Source: Argopecten irradians (lineage: Eukaryota; Mollusca; Bivalvia; Pectinida; Pectinidae). From it: DNA of 64,000 nucleotides. This document shows positions 20,956 through 31,300 of the stretch, piece by piece. The stretch spans positions 6,562,255-6,626,254 of the forward strand of contig NC_091134.1 of NCBI RefSeq assembly GCF_041381155.1, in the 5' to 3' direction. The position numbers and the translations under genes were made by a program. Numbering within the stretch: the first letter of the stretch is position 1; each line of letters opens with the position of its first letter. The notes under the pieces were generated by a model that was not told the origin of the DNA, ran no database searches, and saw nothing but the letters and a program-made list of their open reading frames with translations.

Positions 20956-21791
20956 GGCTCTGAATGACAACCATTATCATTGTGCGTGCTTTTCGTCTCA
21001 CTGCTCTATCCACTGAAGAGACTCAGCATATCTGCTAGCTGGTAGTCCAAATCAGAGAAATCGAGATATCAGTATCAAATTCGTCGAAAGCCAGAGCGTC
21101 GTCTTCAATGTCGATGAGCTAATGTGACACTACATTACCAGTGTTGTTCTAGCCTGTCATCTTTCATGAGTTCATATCAGGAATAACAGGTTCAGAGATG
21201 TGGGATCTCCCTCAGATAGTAACATATCGTAAATGCTGTTTCAGACTTCTCCGGCAAAATGGAAATTACACCAGATACACATTCTTCGAATGATGGTTCT
21301 CCTTAGCACATAATTCGCATGAAGTACCATGCATCAATCTTGTGGACCCTCGTACGACCATCAATGACACAGGGGATATCATCGGGGTCATTAATGTTAA
21401 ATGTTTTTCATTGGTCTGACTTTTCCCACTCGCTTGAAATATGCGTAAAGATACCATTGAAGACTCTCTAGAAAAAAATTCTCTACAGTGTTTTCCAGAC
21501 CTGGCAAATTGTGGAACTTCACTGCAGACCTCATTTATGACCTCAAAGAATTCACCTGTGCCATCTAAGGTCACTGAGGGTTCACAAGAATGAGGAATTG
21601 TGCTTCATAGGAACTAAGGAGAACCAGCTCAACCCTTCGCAGAATTTGGATCTGGTGTCTTTTCCATCATGCTGGGGAAGTCTGGAACATCATATACGAT
21701 TTGTGAATCACTAGATTGGAAAGTTATGACCACGACGGTAACCCGGTAATGGAATGACATATCAGCTCATCGCCATCGAAGACAAAGAACT
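20956..21791. other. Loop of the foldback element, cargo not recognised
   Basis: About 836 bp not paired between the arms. The - strand has an open stretch at 21574-21266 of about 100 codons, rich in Ser, and a second frame includes NINDPDDIPCVIDGRTRVH. Codon choice is not informative by eye. It could be a remnant of a transposase or of captured host sequence; I recognise neither. Confidence 0.4.
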
Positions 21792-22593
21792 AGTGAAAGA
21801 AATATGTGACACTGTAGTAACTATCTGACATTTCCTTACGTTATACACAGGAAATAACAATGGATGTGCTCATTCTAAAAGGCACAGAACGTTTCGGAAA
21901 GTGTCATGGTATTAACGTAATGGCAGGCTTACCTCAGTTTTAATTTGATACTATATAGCTATTAGTTGACGTTTTGCTGTAATAATTCAGTTTTAGACGC
22001 TACTAGTCTACAAAATTTCGAACATGAAAATTGATTATTTTAAATTCCCACTTAGATATTCAGCCAACTTTAAATTCAAATTTGTTTAGATCTAAATCGT
22101 CAATAGCCAATATTATATTCAGGAAATTCTAAGACACCAGGAAACTGTAGTGTCGGTGGTTTGGAAAAATAACAATCATATGCCCTGTATACGCATCCGA
22201 TGATGTTTTGTAAAACAAATGATGGTATAACAATAATTCTCTTTTGCATTTATATATATTTGTTTTTGTTTTTACTGTTTGACAAGATATCAAATAACTG
22301 AAAAGTAGTCAAAAAACTGATAAGAAGTAAAAGTTTGCTGTTGGGAAACATTTTTTCTGCGGCAAGCCATATGTGAAAAATTTGCTGAAAAATTACCATT
22401 TTTGAGCTTAAAATCCGATTTTTTTCACTTCCTGTGTACAAATCGCTACATATATTGGATTATTTGGTCCTGATATGTATTTGTTGTTCTATTGTGGTCA
22501 TTTTGATACCTCATTTGGCTACTTCGGTTGAAAAATATCAATGTTACGACTATATCTCAATTTTTAATGAAATTTGAGATGGCGGCCATTTTA

Positions 22594-22668
22594 GACATAT
22601 CCTAAGTTATATCACACTCTCGATAACTGGAATATATTGAGTTTTGGATGATTAAAATTAGGTTAATT
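22594..22668 (-). repeat. Split direct repeat B2 (outer end)
   Basis: 75 bp starting GACATATCCTAAGTTATATC on the + strand; identical by eye to 22829-22903. Confidence 0.9.
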
Positions 22669-22758
22669 CCTGTTACCCAGAGTGTTTTTTTTTTGTTTTT
22701 TTTTTCTCCAGGACCTGGATCATAGATCTAGCAGTCATGTCGTCTGTGCCTATCTCCA

Positions 22759-22903
22759 GCTTCTTCAAAAGTGTGACGTCATAATTTGGAAATCTCGTGA
22801 TCTCGCGTGTGATTTGACTTAAGATATCGACATATCCTAAGTTATATCACACTCTCGATAACTGGAATATATTGAGTTTTGGATGATTAAAATTAGGTTA
22901 ATT
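22759..22903 (-). repeat. Split direct repeats A2 (22759-22827) and B1 (22829-22903), abutting
   Basis: A2 is a 69-bp match to 29630-29698; B1 is a 75-bp match to 22594-22668. They touch with one base between. This junction is what a circular intermediate would present to the recombinase. Confidence 0.9.
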
Positions 22904-23412
22904 TCCCAGTAACCCCATTCTACCTTTAACATTCTACAAAATTCCCAAAACTAAACCCAATACTCATCCAAAACTCATTAAATTTCAGTTATTCACCACA
23001 ACTTCTTCCCGATGCAAAATTCTTGATGTCAGTGATGTCATCAATTGATCTTCGACTATAAACTTTCATTTCTGATGACCTTTACTCCTATTAAGTTGGC
23101 AGCAGATCATAATTTGGTATCATCTGCCTTGCATCAACTTCTCATTTTTTTTAAAACAAAAAGAGATAATTATTAACTTTAGTCAATGCATTTTATTCAT
23201 CACATGTATTATATCTTAATCATACTAGCATACATAACAGTCATTCTGTGCCAGAAAAAATATCTATTGTTGTTACACATTTAATATCGGGTAAATGCAC
23301 ATTTTTTAACTCACTCGCAAAACTGAGAATCAACTTATATGCATTATTAAGTATCATGCAGATTCAATCATTATAGAACATAACACAACTATGACTACAA
23401 ACTTCCTAAAAT

Positions 23413-24732
23413 TTATGGGAAAGCTTTCACCATGCGCCCAACATCACCCAATCTCTCATATATTCTATCCGCTCTGTCTGGGACATTAACTACATTTCTC
23501 AACATATTCCCAACAACACCATTCTGTGCCATCCGTGCCATTCGAGAATACCTGTCTAAGCTACCTTTCGTGCGCCACCCAACGTGCTCCATAATTTCAC
23601 TTGATTTGCCGTAACCAGACACTGCCAAGGTAACAGCACAACCCCCTCTTAGACTGTGAGTTGTTTCCCCTTGATCCAAACCCAAAGATTTTAGGTAATG
23701 CTTCAACCTACTATACATAAGGGCTGTGGAAACTGGGCAATCAAGGACTTGTTTGTTTGAGTGGTCCAGTGGTCTGAACAGATAACCATATCTTAAATCA
23801 ACCCCCATATCCTTACTGCTACTTACGAATTTCTCTAGCCCGGAAACGGGACAAACTACCCGGTTATTCGAGCGCATCACTGTAAATTCGTTTGTCTTTC
23901 CATTATTCAACGTTTTCCCTACAGTGTGTACAAATGTGAAACCTGAATCATCTGGTAAGCGTTTTACCTCCTGCGCAACACACTGGGCTAAGTCACCTGC
24001 TCTGTCCCCGCCGAAGAACTGTATTTTAAAAAATGCCTGGTCTCGAAGCAAAACAAACTTTTCTGCTAATGTGTGGCTACTGTTTTCCAATTCATGATCT
24101 ATATGTTCAGAAATTCTCAAGAGTTTCGGAAAGAAAAGAGGTTTTGCTTGATGAACCCTGACCCTAGCTCTTGCTTGCTCACGATTTACAGCTTTTACAT
24201 ACTTTTTAACTCTAAAACTGTCAGCCGGATTTCCAGATAAAGTAGCCCCATTCCACGTTTCCCCCCGTCCCAGTTGGTCAAAGATCGATTTAATTTGTCC
24301 CACAAAAGATTGTACAGTACCAGCAGACAGACGCTTTGGGCAATCACATCCTGTTACTGTAGTTCCTAAATTAGGACAATTGAGGTGATGAATTTTTGTC
24401 TTTCCCTTTATGTCCTTGTGTACTAGGAATTCACAAATATCATCTGGTGTGACTAGAGCTAAAGACATATCAGACACCTTAAGAAAGGTACACAACTCTT
24501 TCTCAAGAGCAGTTTTCTTTCTATTGTACTCTGAGTCGTCAACTAAACTGTCCAAAAACTTCAACCGTTCTTTGGTGATAAAATTCTGCCCTCCTCTTAA
24601 TGATGATGAGTCAGATTTCTTACCACAAGATTGGCAAAACCTGTGCCCCTCGTCGTTGGGGTACATACAAGCCTCACAAGATACTGTTGGGGACCAGATC
24701 TTTGGAGTTCCACGCCGTGCCTGGAATATCAA
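23413..24732 (-). CDS. Tyrosine recombinase of the YR retroelement
   Basis: About 439 residues, the DNA integration enzyme of the element. N-terminal Cys motifs (CEACMYPNDEGHRFCQSCGK) suggest a zinc ribbon. The C-terminal catalytic domain shows the tetrad of the family: Arg in FFGGDRAGDL, H-x-x-R in THSLRGG, His in HVGWR and the nucleophile Tyr in LDRYSR. The frame overlaps the end of the RT frame by a few bases and has no ATG at its start. A good splice-acceptor-like sequence (GATATTCCAG, ending 24721) lies there, so expression by splicing or read-through is likely. It differs from DDE integrases and explains the absence of a target duplication. Confidence 0.93.
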   Translation of the reverse strand: MIFQARRGTPKIWSPTVSCEACMYPNDEGHRFCQSCGKKSDSSSLRGGQNFITKERLKFLDSLVDDSEYNRKKTALEKELCTFLKVSDMSLALVTPDDICEFLVHKDIKGKTKIHHLNCPNLGTTVTGCDCPKRLSAGTVQSFVGQIKSIFDQLGRGETWNGATLSGNPADSFRVKKYVKAVNREQARARVRVHQAKPLFFPKLLRISEHIDHELENSSHTLAEKFVLLRDQAFFKIQFFGGDRAGDLAQCVAQEVKRLPDDSGFTFVHTVGKTLNNGKTNEFTVMRSNNRVVCPVSGLEKFVSSSKDMGVDLRYGYLFRPLDHSNKQVLDCPVSTALMYSRLKHYLKSLGLDQGETTHSLRGGCAVTLAVSGYGKSSEIMEHVGWRTKGSLDRYSRMARMAQNGVVGNMLRNVVNVPDRADRIYERLGDVGRMVKAFP

Positions 24733-26969
24733 AAGAACACCAACTTAGCTGCAAACAGGTCATGAGCTAGAGCTCTAGGGCAAAAACCTGCCTTTGATGG
24801 TCCCAAAATAACATCCTTATCCCCTTTCCTGCCTAACAGCATGTGGTCAGTGGTGCGAGACCAAATCACCGGCCACCAATGTGGGAGAGGTGTGAGGCGT
24901 GGGAAAATAAATGTACAAGCCTTACATTTTTGTTCTACCAAGTACTTTAGAGCCACTGAGATGAGACAGAATGGTGGGAAGATGTATCCTGCTGTGTCCC
25001 CAGTGATTTCCTGTGCAAAGAAGTTTACCCCATCTGTATGTACTGTAGGACAGGGTGTATAATGTCGCAAGTTGTTCCCCTTTTGGTCTACCATAACATT
25101 GGAATCTAAGGACATGTAATCTATCAAATGAGGTCCAAACCTTTTCTGGACATCCTCCCATGATTTCTCTGAAAGTGTACAATCTTGTAACGATAATCTG
25201 CGGGACTCTATATCTGCCGGGTTAAGTTTTGATGGGATATAGCTAACCTTCAAATCTATGTTGGCCCGTTGAGTGAGTTTAAATAAGTCCTTAATGAACT
25301 TAACCAGCTCTGGACACTTACACCCTTGCCCCTCCCATGCAGCAACTACTGCCTTATTGTCCACCATAGCATCCACCCTATGATTCTCCAGTTTATCCTC
25401 CAATGCAAGGATAGTCTGGTACAATGCTTCAGCTTCCTTAACATGGATGGGTCGAGAGTCGCCGCGAAGAAAGAAATCCCCCAGTGCCTCTCCCTCTACA
25501 ACTGCGCCCCACCGAAACAGAGAAGCGTCTGTGGCAAGATTTACCTGCAAGTGCTTCTCTACTCTCCATGGCACAAAACCTGACCAGCTATCAATAAACT
25601 TCCAATGCTCAATTTCACTTCGAAGTTCTCCACAAACCTGTACCTGTCTACTGTTTTTGGAGGCCACCCCTATTGCTCTGTTTATATCCCTGATGTAAAG
25701 CCTAGCAGCAGGCACCGCTAACATGAATGATATACACTTACCTGCAAACCTCTGGAGTGTCTTCACATCTACGTATTGACACTGGAGAATACTTTCCCTT
25801 AATGACTGAAACACCTGCTTTTTCTCCTCTGGTACACAGAATGTCTGTCGGACTGCATCAACAAACATGCCCAAAAACCTGATAGTCTGACAAGGAACAA
25901 ACACAGACTTTTCTATGCCTATAAAGTAGCCCAACCGTGTTAGGACTTCGCAAACGATGAACAACGCCCTTTCTGCCTGCAGTATCCCAGGCTGTTGTGA
26001 AGGGCCAGAACTACTCAACAGCTCCGCTATTAGCCTATCGTCAATATACTGTAGACATGGCACTCCCAATCCCCGACAGTATCCTGTTGCTGCCATACCC
26101 ATGGTATGGTATATGTAAGCACTTGGCTTGAACCCAAAAGGTAACGTGTTATAGGTATAATACCAACCTGCGAATTGAACCCCAAAGTATTTTTTAGAGT
26201 CGTCATCCAGCTTCACATGATCATAACCAGACTTATCATCCACCGATGTCATGAAGCAACTATGGGAAATAATCCTAGGCACTTCTTTTAAAGTGTCGAG
26301 GGCAAATGGCAAATCACGTATCCACAGGTTTAGAAAACGTTCATCATGACACAGTCGTGGTTTGGTTGGCTCCACCGTGAGTGGCATGACCAGATGTGGG
26401 GGGTCAACTTCTCCCACTTTCCCCCAGACAGACATGGATCCATTACATACCCTTTCTCTCAATGATTCTACAATGAAATCCTCATGGCCTATACAAGTGT
26501 TAGCATTAGAGAAATACATGGGTGGTGGAACATCCGAATCGTATGACTTTCCTTTAAAATTCCCCTTAAACGGACGAAGGTAAGTGCTCACGTTAACCCC
26601 TGACGATATCCACCCAATAACCTCGTCAGTAGCCCCGATATTCTCCCAAAATCTAACATAGTCATGCACATTACCAGCTAAGTAAAACCCAGGCTTTCTC
26701 AATGGCAAACTATCCAAATCAAAACTTTTACCAGCAGCAACCTCCTCAGCCGTGGCATGGAAGAATGGAGGCTGGAGAGTTTTCCCTCTGTAGTTCACCC
26801 ACTGTGTCTCACGATTCCTGAACTGTACAGTGGTTGGGTCAAAATTTACCCTCCTCTCCCAATCGGGAATATCTGGATAGAATTTTGCTCTTTTCTCACC
26901 ATTCTGGAAAAGCCAAGTATCGAAAAGAAAAGATTTACAGAGGTAAAAACTCCCCAGCCTCCATTCCAC
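24729..26969 (-). CDS. Reverse transcriptase-RNase H of the YR retroelement
   Basis: An open frame of about 746 residues. RT motifs: TSVDDKSGYDHV (motif A Asp), LPFGFKPSAYIYH, and LQYIDDR (motif C YIDD). RNase H motifs follow: LATDASLFRWGAVV, KEAEAL and VDNKAVVAAW, then a SYIPSKLNPAD box typical of this group. The last 170 residues (DYMSLDSNV, DGVNFFAQE, PPFCLISVAL, HWWPVIW) form the extra C-terminal domain commonly seen after RNase H in animal DIRS-order elements. The first in-frame codon listed is GTG, and the frame stays open to about 27015, where a TTTCACCTAG acceptor-like site sits, so the true 5' boundary is probably a splice site rather than a start codon. Confidence 0.93.
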   Translation of the reverse strand: MEWRLGSFYLCKSFLFDTWLFQNGEKRAKFYPDIPDWERRVNFDPTTVQFRNRETQWVNYRGKTLQPPFFHATAEEVAAGKSFDLDSLPLRKPGFYLAGNVHDYVRFWENIGATDEVIGWISSGVNVSTYLRPFKGNFKGKSYDSDVPPPMYFSNANTCIGHEDFIVESLRERVCNGSMSVWGKVGEVDPPHLVMPLTVEPTKPRLCHDERFLNLWIRDLPFALDTLKEVPRIISHSCFMTSVDDKSGYDHVKLDDDSKKYFGVQFAGWYYTYNTLPFGFKPSAYIYHTMGMAATGYCRGLGVPCLQYIDDRLIAELLSSSGPSQQPGILQAERALFIVCEVLTRLGYFIGIEKSVFVPCQTIRFLGMFVDAVRQTFCVPEEKKQVFQSLRESILQCQYVDVKTLQRFAGKCISFMLAVPAARLYIRDINRAIGVASKNSRQVQVCGELRSEIEHWKFIDSWSGFVPWRVEKHLQVNLATDASLFRWGAVVEGEALGDFFLRGDSRPIHVKEAEALYQTILALEDKLENHRVDAMVDNKAVVAAWEGQGCKCPELVKFIKDLFKLTQRANIDLKVSYIPSKLNPADIESRRLSLQDCTLSEKSWEDVQKRFGPHLIDYMSLDSNVMVDQKGNNLRHYTPCPTVHTDGVNFFAQEITGDTAGYIFPPFCLISVALKYLVEQKCKACTFIFPRLTPLPHWWPVIWSRTTDHMLLGRKGDKDVILGPSKAGFCPRALAHDLFAAKLVFF

Positions 26970-27137
26970 GTGACAGAATATGCCACTAAAGGATAAGTTC
27001 CTCCGGAATGAAAGCTAGGTGAAATTAACATTAATCGATTAGAGCCAAGACAATGATTGCACTCTACCTGAGCAGAAAAACCTAAAATACAGCATGATAC
27101 AGTACGAAAACTCGCAGAAAAAATCTTCTAAAGTTTA

Positions 27138-27812
27138 CTAGTCTTTCTTAATTTTTGGACAGTCACTGACAAAGTGTCCCTGTTCCTTACAATAAAAACA
27201 AGAACCCCTACCTCGAGGGTTCCTATCCCCCTTGTTCCTCCTACCCTGCCTGAAAGAGTGCCCTCCCTGGGGAGATAATGGATGGGGATATGGCATATAA
27301 CTATAGGGGCTACCTACTCCTGGCACCCCTGGAAGGATTGGGCCCGGTGCTGCCATTGTTGAAAAATTCTGGCTTGGGTGCATCATGTGCGGGTAAAACA
27401 TGGGGGAAATGGGGGTTGGAACTTTACCCACCGCATTCTCACTTTTCTCTCTCTCACTCATGACCTCAGAACATTTCACCCAATCTGCCACAGTCGCACT
27501 GATTTTTCGGTCCTCATTTGACCCTAACAATTTCATGCAGAGACCACAAATGTCTGGATGTGCCTCAAATTGCCTACATGCCGATAAAGCTTTGGCATAA
27601 AAGTCTGCCTCAGAGTGCCCAGCTTTTATAGCATTCTCCACTAGGATTTCCATTGCTGTAACCAGGGCCGGCCCTTTTGTCAATGACGGCTTGCTTGCCA
27701 GGGACCTTACGTGTTTTAGTGATCCTTCCACCGTTTTTTGCGACATCAGCTTCAAGTCTTCCTCCATCCGCTGCATGCGGACCTCCATATCTGTTGATAT
27801 AATAAAATTCAA
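27138..27812 (-). CDS. Gag-like protein of the YR retroelement
   Basis: The nucleic-acid-binding structural protein of the element. A helical N-terminal part (MEVRMQRMEEDLKLMSQK) is followed by a middle domain around ADFYAKALSACRQF, a Pro/Gly/Met-rich linker, a basic RQGRRNKGDRNPRGRG patch, and a C-terminal CCHC knuckle CFYCKEQGHFVSDC. It is the promoter-proximal frame on the - strand, directly upstream of RT. An acceptor-like site at about 27791 suggests the frame may start upstream, as noted for the leader exons. Confidence 0.85.
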   Translation of the reverse strand: MNFIISTDMEVRMQRMEEDLKLMSQKTVEGSLKHVRSLASKPSLTKGPALVTAMEILVENAIKAGHSEADFYAKALSACRQFEAHPDICGLCMKLLGSNEDRKISATVADWVKCSEVMSEREKSENAVGKVPTPISPMFYPHMMHPSQNFSTMAAPGPILPGVPGVGSPYSYMPYPHPLSPQGGHSFRQGRRNKGDRNPRGRGSCFYCKEQGHFVSDCPKIKKD

Positions 27813-27927
27813 TTAACAAATCAATCAACCGTAGCATTTATCTGTAGTCCGAGCAGCATAAAAAATCAAATGACAGTCAATGTGAAATACGCCAGTCCAG
27901 ACCTTTTAGACAAGGTCCAAATTTTAC

Positions 27928-28591
27928 CTGTTGGCGTTGCTTTGGCCGTCTTATCTCCCTTCTCGTTTACTACAGTAATTCGAGTTGACTTGTCGCTCGT
28001 ACTTGTCCCAGATTGTAGGGTTGTTCCCCTTGGTGCCCCCACCTCGTTTGCGTGTATAATTGCAACATGCAGAAGGAACCTTAATGATATGTCTGTCAAA
28101 TTTGTTCCCGCCAGCGAAAGGACCAAACTTGCCTCTTGTCCTGTAAACCACAATATAAACACCAGGTCTCAATATTTACCCAAAACTAACACACTTAAAA
28201 CATAAAACTACCTTTCTTAGGATCATAAAACCACAAATTGAAGCAAGGTATAAAATAAATAGTCAATGAATCTCAGCCAAATTTATATTACATAAAACAA
28301 GATATTAACCGTTAAAATGAAACATATTCTAAACATTTAATCGGTGACCTGGTAATTTATACTAAAACATTTGTTTCATCCATTAAACTATGATTTTTAC
28401 CTACCAGTGAGTTTTTTAAATTCTTTTTGTAATTCGGCTGTCGAATATCCAGAGAGAGGGTGGTCCTTTTTCAGCCTCGCAGTGACTAAGTCCCCCATCT
28501 CCTCCTCCAACGTTGCCTTCACTTCCAAAATAACTGGCAAGATATCCTTTTCCACTAAGCAATGCCTAGCTTTCAGTATTTGGTATGTCAT
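27928..28591 (-). other. Candidate spliced leader exons of the YR retroelement gag
   Basis: Two open blocks, 28591-28405 and 28140-27928, are each bounded by AG acceptor and GT donor sequences of good quality (donors ACTG/GTAGGT and ACAG/GTAAAA). The first begins with ATG right after its acceptor. Their phases agree with one another and with gag across 27790. Introns have been described in DIRS-order retroelements. This is inference from splice-site appearance only. Confidence 0.5.
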
Positions 28592-29629
28592 CTGTAAAAA
28601 CACATTCCCAAAATTAGGAATTGAACTAACCCCAGTTTCATAAGGTGTTTTTAATACATATAATACAAATTATTTTCTCATATTAAGATAGGTATACTTG
28701 TGATAATTGCATCCTTAATCTCGTGTAACTTGGTAGTTGTATTAAATACCAGACACTCGAAAAATTGGCATAAGACAATTCGCCCCTAAATAAATATCAT
28801 GTGGGCGAAACGTCCCATTGTTCAACAAGCCAATCCCCGACTGCACGAGTTAATATTTCATTATCAGCTTCAAAACAGATTACCGTGAGTTGTGACAGCC
28901 TCGTCAATATAAAACGAAAATCACCACACTTCAGCTAACATACCATAACACGTAATATTTCTGAAGGCTTTCATAATCGATGCTTGTTTTCTCTGCCATG
29001 TGCCTGTGACACTTTCTGTCACTTGTGATCAACCGCCCGTGACCTTGCCCTCGACCGCATGGGGCGTGAAATTTTGAAACAAGAATTATCCGGAGAAAAA
29101 CTAACCACGAATCGTTATAAAAAGAATGAAAAATGAATAATAATGAAATGGTCATACATATATTGCCCGCAAATTGAAAACCAGAAAATAAATCTCGACT
29201 TTCACTCGTCGGTCTCCTCTCGTTGGCCAGCACCACGCTTTGGCGCCCTTGCTACTTATACCAAAAAATTTACAAAGTCCTCGTGCCTGATAAAATTAAT
29301 CATTTAAATAATCATACTCCAAAAAATGTGTCTACGGCTTGACCTCCTGACACAACCATATCGCCAGCCCACGACTTGTGGCGACCAATATTATTTTTCC
29401 CTGGCCCCGCCATCAACTTAATCGAGAAATCCAAACACGTGGTCTGTGGGGAAAACGCCTCGTGGATTAAATTTACGAAGCAATATAGAAAATAACCCTG
29501 CGTACATCCCACATCATACTACACATGTCTCCGGCCGAACCTCCTGACATGTAAATAAATGGCTAGAAAGTGAAAAATTTAAAACTTCTTACCGTCTCAC
29601 TCATCAGACGTGGCGTCCAGCTTCGAGGT
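28592..29629 (-). other. 5' untranslated region of the YR retroelement
   Basis: No convincing coding sequence was seen between the A1 repeat and the leader exons; only short chance frames. Confidence 0.5.
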
Positions 29630-29698
29630 GCTTCTTCAAAAGTGTGACGTCATAATTTGGAAATCTCGTGATCTCGCGTGTGATTTGACTTAAGATAT
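29630..29698 (-). repeat. Split direct repeat A1 (5' end of the YR element)
   Basis: 69 bp, identical by eye to 22759-22827; core GTGTGACGTCATAATTTGG. Confidence 0.9.
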
Positions 29699-30440
29699 GG
29701 TGATGTCATAACCGGAACTTATACAACGTCAACATTGGTTTTTGTTGTTGTTGTTTAAACTGATTGAAAAGTGTTCAAAAACTTGTTAGAAGTAACAGTT
29801 TGCTGTTGGGAAACATTTTTTCTGCGGCAAGCCATATATGAAAAATTTGCTGAAAAATTACCATTTTTGAGCTTAAAATTCTATTTTTTCACTTCCTGCG
29901 TACAAATCGCTACATATATTGGATTATTTGGTCCTGATATGTATTTGTTGTTCTATTGTGGTCATTTTGATACCTCATTTGGCTACTTCGGTTGAAAAGT
30001 ATCAATGTTACGACTATATCTCAATTTTTAGTGAAATTTGAGATGGCGGCCATTTTGGTGACGTCATAACCGGAACTTATACAATGTTAACATTGGTTTT
30101 TGTTGTTGTTGTTGTTGTTTAAACTGATTGAAAAGTGGTCAAAAACTGATTAGAAGTAACGATTTGCTGTTGGGAAACATTTTTTTCTGCGGCAAGCCAT
30201 ATATGAAAAAATTTGCTGAAAAATTACCATTCACCAAGATCAAGATCACTACATATATTGGATTAGTTGGTCCTGATTTGTGTTTGTTGTTCTATTGTGG
30301 TCATTTTGATACCTAATTTGTCTACTTCGGTTGAAAAATGTCAATGTTATGACTATTTTTCAATTTTTAGTGAAATTCGAGATGGCGGCCATCTTGATGA
30401 CGTCATAACCGGAAGTTCATCCTAACTTATGCAATGTTAA
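29699..30440. repeat. Tandem repeats of the right foldback arm
   Basis: In inverted orientation to 19787-20466. The copies have TGACGTCA at 30398-30405 and 30059-30066; a third copy with TGATGTCA at 29701 is the one split by the YR element. CAACAA-type linkers (as GTTGTTGTT here) separate the copies. Confidence 0.85.
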
Positions 30441-30602: not shown

Positions 30603-31300
30603 TTGATACTTGAGTATAAACATTTGTTTCCGGATACACCATGCCAAACAGATGCTATCTATCACGACGTGGATGTGGTGGATGCGACACCTGTTAAGCA
30701 ACATCCTTACCGTGTCAATCCTTTGAAAGAAGAACATTTAAAGAAAGAAATCCAATACATGTTGGACAATGCTATTATTGAACCAAGCAAAAGTGAATGG
30801 AGCCCCTCATGTGTTCTGGTGCCAAAGCCAGACAAGACATACCGATTCTGTACTGACTTCAGAGAAGTAAACTCTGTCAGTAAAACAGACTCTTATCCAA
30901 TTCCAAGGATTGACTCATGTACTGACAAATTTCGCAAAGCCAAGTACGTAAGCAAGTTTGACCTGTTGAAAGGATATTGGCAGATGCCATTAACAGAAAG
31001 AGCTAAAGAAGTGTCGACATTTGTAACCTCACATGGTTTGTACCAGTACAAAGTTATGCCGTTTGGTATGAAGAATGCCCCGGCAACATTTCAACGTCTT
31101 CTTAACAGCGTGATATCAGACCTGGAAGGCTGTGAAGGATACATTGATGACGTCATCAACTACCACGACACGTGGGAAGACTATCTACGCGGGATTCGTG
31201 AATTCTTCGAAAGACTCACTACCATGAAATTGACTGTAAACTTATTGAAATGTGAATTTGTCATGCAACTGTTCAATTTTTAGGCCATGTTGTAGGACAG
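30603..31300 (+). mobile_element. Reverse transcriptase region of the Gmr1-like LTR element (fossil)
   Basis: Typical Gypsy-type RT: VKQHPYRVNPLKEEHLKKEI, FCTDFREVNSVSK, FDLLKGYWQMPL, MPFGMKNAPATFQRLLN and the YIDDV active site at about 31141. It is separated from the upstream part of the element by the foldback insertion. Confidence 0.92.

Follow-up and report, generated by a model that had tools for sequence, protein, structure and literature searches.

We find that a stretch of 64,000 nucleotides from Argopecten irradians (NCBI RefSeq assembly GCF_041381155.1, contig NC_091134.1, forward-strand positions 6,562,255 to 6,626,254; hereafter the window, in which all coordinates are counted) probably carries an apparently intact ALOG-class retrotransposon of the DIRS order with PAT-like split direct repeats. 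A preliminary description had reported here an apparently whole and young retroelement of the tyrosine-recombinase kind, its split direct repeats in the order A-body-BA-B, and the termini, repeats and reading frames bear this out, the arrangement found being A1-body-B1A2-90 bp-B2, with every part on the minus strand. A1 and A2 match over 69 bp with no mismatch, and so do B1 (22829-22903) and B2 (22594-22668) over 75 bp. In three other near-full copies in the genome (C566, C1:25.4M and C1:53.3M) GTC is followed by T at the 3′ end and at the internal junction alike, and we therefore take the B unit to be 76 bp with one difference in the window copy, where T closes B2 (22593) and G closes B1 (22828) in the sense of the element. 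The repeat identity claimed earlier thus stands for the 69-bp A and the 75-bp B and fails at one site of the full 76-bp B, so that 144 of the 145 repeat positions match. Just upstream of B1 (element sense) there is also a 32-nt segment (22961-22992) that is 88% complementary to part of B1/B2. From the comparison of repeats, and for the whole element also from the empty site in a neighbouring repeat unit, the layout is:

22593..29698, minus strand: whole element, 7106 bp, A1-body-B1A2-B2
29630..29698, minus strand: A1 split direct repeat, 5′ end of the element
22828..22903, minus strand: B1 split direct repeat, 76 bp, last base unlike B2
22759..22827, minus strand: A2 split direct repeat
22669..22758, minus strand: 90-bp spacer from A2 to B2
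22593..22668, minus strand: B2, 76 bp, 3′ end of the element
22270..22592, plus strand: left part of the repeat unit of about 360 bp that holds the insertion
29699..30410, plus strand: right-hand remainder of the interrupted unit, then the adjacent unit with an empty site

The flanks of the element are the two halves of one repeat unit of about 360 bp. The neighbouring unit is uninterrupted near 30050-30063 (ccatttt/ggtgacg, as compared with ccatttt-element-ggtgatg at the window insertion) and therefore no bases were duplicated or lost, as the preliminary description had claimed in reporting no target duplication. Joined flanks were also searched for in the genome. For C1:25.4M/C566 the join was crossed by 10 of the 15 matches listed (nine at 96-99%, one at 95%), the others being both copies' own flanks (4 matches) and one right-side match that begins 5 bases before the join; all 8 empty sites inspected were continuous through it, and the target repeat has a 581-residue frame that by eye is a Gypsy-like integrase gene. 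For C1:53.3M, where the best 40 of 2598 candidates were scored, 41 of the 43 matches listed crossed the join (38 at 86-91% and 3 shorter ones at 78-80%), the remaining 2 being its own flanks, and no gap was seen at the join in 3 of 3 copies inspected. It may be noted that C1:25.4M and C566 are counted as one insertion because their flanks are common to both (one side agrees at 99%, the other at 93% with 54 gap positions) and they may be alleles. The lack of target-site duplication that is a criterion of the DIRS order is thus seen at three independent insertions. A haplotype without the window insertion was not found in the genome, because the left flank (21200-22200) is a widespread repeat with 155 genome matches, which also matches itself in inverted orientation.

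The coding parts of the element, with the gag exons taken from comparison between copies (exon d also from its frame and Pfam), are:

29593..29698, minus strand: predicted 5′ leader exon, its donor /GTAAGAAG beginning at 29592
28592..29592, minus strand: predicted intron 1, ending at the gag ATG
28405..28591, minus strand: gag exon b, with the ATG start
28141..28404, minus strand: intron 2, phase 1, found in the window family and a sister family
27928..28140, minus strand: gag exon c
27791..27927, minus strand: intron 3
27138..27790, minus strand: gag exon d, with CCHC zinc knuckle and stop
24729..26903, minus strand: reverse transcriptase (RT), RNase H and MT-like coding region, from a phase-0 3′ splice-site-like CAG/AAT to the stop
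23413..24720, minus strand: tyrosine recombinase (YR) with zinc ribbon, ALOG domain and recombinase domain, from a phase-0 3′ splice-site-like CAG/GCA

All three frames had been described as open. This holds for RT (24729-26969) and YR (23413-24732), both uninterrupted, whereas Gag is open, with 350 residues, only after its three exons are joined. Pfam names the Gag zinc knuckle (zf-CCHC, E 2.1e-5), RVT_1 in the pol frame and, above the cut-off, the ALOG domain of the recombinase (PF04852, E 7.3e-16). The same ALOG region matches the ALOG domain of LSH3 (PDB 8p5q; phmmer E 1.1e-5) and has the HxxxC and CxC residues of the ALOG zinc-ribbon insert as HHLNC and CDC. A further zinc ribbon (CEAC..CQSC) lies within the first 40 residues of YR, with zinc-ribbon Pfam matches below the cut-off. 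The recombinase motifs GDRAGDL, HSLR, HVGW and LDRY follow the R..H-x-x-R..Y pattern, and presumably have the catalytic roles that we assigned to them from alignment and known motifs. Two Pfam results weigh against these assignments: the Phage_integrase match of YR is below the cut-off (E 0.0046), and neither RNase H nor an MT domain is named in the pol frame. Our assignment of both regions relies on where they lie and on an alignment to DIRS-like polyproteins encoded in this genome, an alignment that in the MT-like region extends up to residues 688-707; the motif FPPFCLI recurs there exactly in L053 and L054, and as NPPFCLI in L051. By its sequence the element is placed as a PAT-like layout, with split repeats A1-body-B1A2-B2, within the ALOG class of DIRS1-type elements.

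Further copies, for which the preliminary description had suggested a search, are present. The YR query gave 59 matches in the genome, the near-full copies being the three named above and remnants lying elsewhere, and PF04852 matched at 26 places here and in none of the 14 control genomes. Wnt, a gene family specific to animals, gave 42 matches here and likewise none in the 14 controls, which points to an animal host. Scans of viral contigs gave no confirmed relatives. Stop-free matches to both RT and YR were found in the window copy, C696 (from query residues 25 in RT and 55 in YR), C9:5.96M and C7:8.36M, which is one for each of four ALOG lineages. In an RT tree of 18 rows (19 were prepared and L040, with no RT match, was dropped) the 13 ALOG rows split from L050-L054 at 100/100, a split that carries a long-branch warning. 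Overall divergence between copies is about 2.6-2.7% (168 differences in 6467 aligned positions and 185 in 6959). Regarding polymorphism, the same-flank copies are separated by a nested insert of 1.57 kb, which is present in L011 (C1:25.43M), flanked on both sides by a repeat of about 15 bp of element sequence, and is absent from L009 (C566); the window insertion itself gave no such contrast. L050 (C2:46082500-46089500) is a non-ALOG PAT-like element with open Gag, RT-RNase H-MT-like and YR frames and with split repeats A of 162 bp and B of 76 bp that are 98.7-99.4% identical. It resembles the window element in repeat layout, RT-RNase H-MT-like region, YR and Gag zinc knuckle (by eye in L050), but it lies outside the 26 PF04852 matches and its Gag is in a single frame of 271 residues.

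Comparison between copies, together with selection, supports the reading of the gag gaps as spliceosomal introns. In all four lineages an AG stands directly before a gag ATG, which in L049 lies two codons ahead of the M of MPTTLKK, and the gaps recur with GT..AG borders across copies of the window family. Exons b and c are separated by 264 nt in the window copy and by about 550-565 nt in L046/L047, and they run on unbroken, at the same residue, in L048 and L049. Two genome searches, with the best candidates scored and counted from rows, gave 29 gag places, of which 12 are split by intron 2 (4 in the window family, 8 in the sister family and none in any other); it is absent at 17, where one match runs across the junction, though not all 17 are confirmed to lie inside ALOG elements. 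C7:39.03M is outside both counts since only its exon b matches, although its intron 2 matches as well. We also considered intron 2 as a dispersed introner and rejected this, as its sequence has 5 matches in the genome search, all of them copies of the window family. Against L009 and L010, the window gag has exons without insertions or deletions and introns 1-3 with them, some of the exon borders in this comparison being shifted by a few bases. Between copies, the ratios of synonymous to non-synonymous changes in the spliced gag are 24:13, 21:14 and 23:21, with an expected synonymous share of 0.28, and in exon b the changes are synonymous in 8 of 8 cases in L009 and 6 of 6 in L010. L011 has 8 synonymous and 6 non-synonymous changes there, and its frame is broken at the end of exon b, which weighs against the intron reading. 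The best tree of RT and YR nests the intron-bearing clade (support 82/74), but a single basal loss of intron 2 has p-AU 0.211 and so is not rejected, and this intron may have been either gained or lost. Upstream of exon b a short open stretch, MAEKTSIDYESLQKYYVLW (28943-28999), precedes a donor-like site; it is kept in L009 and L011, is cut short in L010 and has no match inside elements of other families. As a further exon it was rejected, its phase not fitting exon b and its length being short in L010.

RT and YR, we infer, are expressed by splicing as well. Using splice-site matrices built from consensus values, we found in each of the four lineages a donor-like site 95-136 nt into the element (scores 5.1-8.7, weakest in L046/L047). 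Upstream of the start of RT homology, at a distance of 0-51 nt, all four lineages have a phase-0 3′ splice-like site, and three of the four, with L031 and L039 besides, have one within 51 nt of the start of YR homology. At the threshold used, such a site is expected by chance with a probability of 0.04-0.065 for each start, it being understood that the range of acceptor distances and the threshold were set after the sites were seen. In L009, L010 and L011 a stop codon and three further codons come just before the RT acceptor. Several observations weigh against splicing of RT and YR. The leader donor of L046, at 5.1, scores below other nearby donors; the YR acceptor is 69 nt away in L049 and in its duplicate locus L032; no in-phase YR acceptor is found within 51 nt in L046/L018 and L022, where the matches start late; and the degraded L014 fails the YR acceptor scan. 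No start codon for RT or YR is conserved across the compared leaders either. The window copy has a leader ATG in phase with both acceptors, but it is not kept in L010, the leader ATG of L049 is in another phase and the leaders of L046, L047 and L048 are without any ATG. A coding leader was therefore rejected as a general rule.

The B1/A2 junction is palindromic and is a probable recombinase site, predicted from its symmetry as follows:

22800..22859, minus strand: predicted recombinase site at B1/A2, 28-nt arms (22 of 28 complementary) around a 4-nt core

Inverted copies are found at this junction in the window element (22/28), L046 (12/12), L048 (16/20) and L049 (17/20), with cores of 2-6 nt. 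None of 2000 shuffles reached the score in any of the four ALOG lineages, nor did control windows along the same four loci except in one case (0/547, 0/678, 1/685 and 0/685). The junction of the non-ALOG element L050 is an adverse case, as 344 of 2000 shuffles and 151 of 463 windows reach its score. Between the lineages the letters of the junction diverge and the symmetry stays, which would fit co-evolution with the recombinase.

Other readings of these features have to be weighed. One is that the palindrome is a promoter or transcription-factor site, which has in its favour that A1 is also where transcription is expected to start. Yet its centre coincides with the predicted circle junction, the symmetry is kept despite diverged letters in four lineages, and its form is the general one of two inverted repeats around a short core (tyrosine recombinases typically use repeats of 11-13 bp around 6-8 bp, according to a passage of PMC3212892), so we regard a regulatory site as rather improbable. 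That gag is a decayed gene in which the gaps are insertions or chance frame breaks, as the broken exon b of L011 might suggest, appears hardly credible when the same GT..AG gaps recur across family copies, the exons are continuous at the same residue in other families, and the exons carry no insertions or deletions against L009 and L010 while showing a synonymous excess.

The preliminary description had spoken of a PAT/Ngaro-type element, and of this the PAT-like layout is retained and Ngaro is given up. The order A1-body-B1A2-B2 is common to Ngaro and PAT (in the portions of PMC8547959 and PMC6681497 relied on here), but an ordinary Ngaro element would have no MT domain and a classical recombinase. 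Here an MT-like region, seen by alignment though not named by Pfam, follows RNase H, and the recombinase has an ALOG domain, which leaves Ngaro very improbable. A greater share of doubt attaches to the possibility that the element is dead, or intact by chance alone. The divergence between copies and the one mismatch between B1 and B2 speak for it; against it stand the near-complete agreement of the repeats, the open RT, YR and spliced Gag, and the excess of synonymous changes in gag between copies, and on balance we consider it unlikely.

For an ALOG-class element with PAT-like repeats the following cycle may be proposed. It takes its fixed points from the termini, the repeats, the empty sites, the gag introns as read from comparison and selection, and the junction palindrome of four lineages; transcripts, circle, recombinase binding and activity are the steps we infer. 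Transcription would start in or near A1, the unspliced RNA would serve as the genome for reverse transcription, and spliced forms would yield Gag and probably RT and YR too. The cDNA would circularize with B2 joined to A1, the internal B1A2 copy acting as template, after which the ALOG-YR would bind the inverted half-sites flanking the B/A junction and insert the circle by recombination at a chromosomal site without duplicating the target. More tentatively, and with rather more doubt than belief, a new spliceosomal intron may have been gained in gag and spread by retrotransposition, with Gag, RT and YR made by alternative splicing from one A-repeat leader; the intron would spread in this way because the reverse-transcribed RNA is kept unspliced. 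If true, a tyrosine-recombinase element would here show a division of labour like that of retroviruses.

The ALOG class of DIRS1-type retroposons was described in 2012 by Iyer and Aravind (PMC3537659), who, in the passages drawn on here, inferred all metazoan copies to be inactive, an inference which the apparently intact copies in this genome challenge. According to the same passages, the class has in common with the window element a zinc-knuckle Gag, RT, a zinc-ribbon YR, an ALOG domain with HxxxC and CxC, and bounding direct repeats, and probably also RNase H and the MT-like domain, which in the class resembles an inactive adenine methylase. The Ectocarpus form described there is more than 9 kb long, with 159-bp terminal direct repeats and extra 5′ open reading frames, and the window element differs from it in being 7.1 kb long and apparently intact, in having its split repeats resolved, and in its gag introns and palindromic junction. 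Echinoderm PAT-like elements, as excerpted from PMC4157794, have similar split direct repeats and Gag zinc finger, probably a similar MT domain and apparently also internal repeats 3′ of YR, but differ in that the window element has an ALOG-type recombinase and gag introns. Plant ALOG/LSH transcription factors (LSH3, PDB 8p5q) share the ALOG domain with the window YR and are host regulators without a recombinase domain (same excerpt of PMC3537659). The candidate recombinase site offers a concrete target that can be compared with the binding of these factors. In bivalves, DIRS and Ngaro are given at low copy number in the part of PMC10294476 consulted. None of 'intron', 'splic', 'palindrom' and 'inverted repeat' occurs in the main text of PMC3537659, and 'intron' has 0 occurrences in the main texts of PMC3266345, PMC2685390, PMC3783388, PMC4157794, PMC6681497 and PMC9210276. 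As the literature covered is that of open-licence PubMed Central, introns or junction symmetry of such elements may already be in print. The gag introns would be a natural case of introns surviving copying by way of RNA, and one of them is present in some related families and missing from others at the same position. Adjoining the repeat units beside the element there is, by eye, a Gypsy-like reverse transcriptase fragment (30603-31283).

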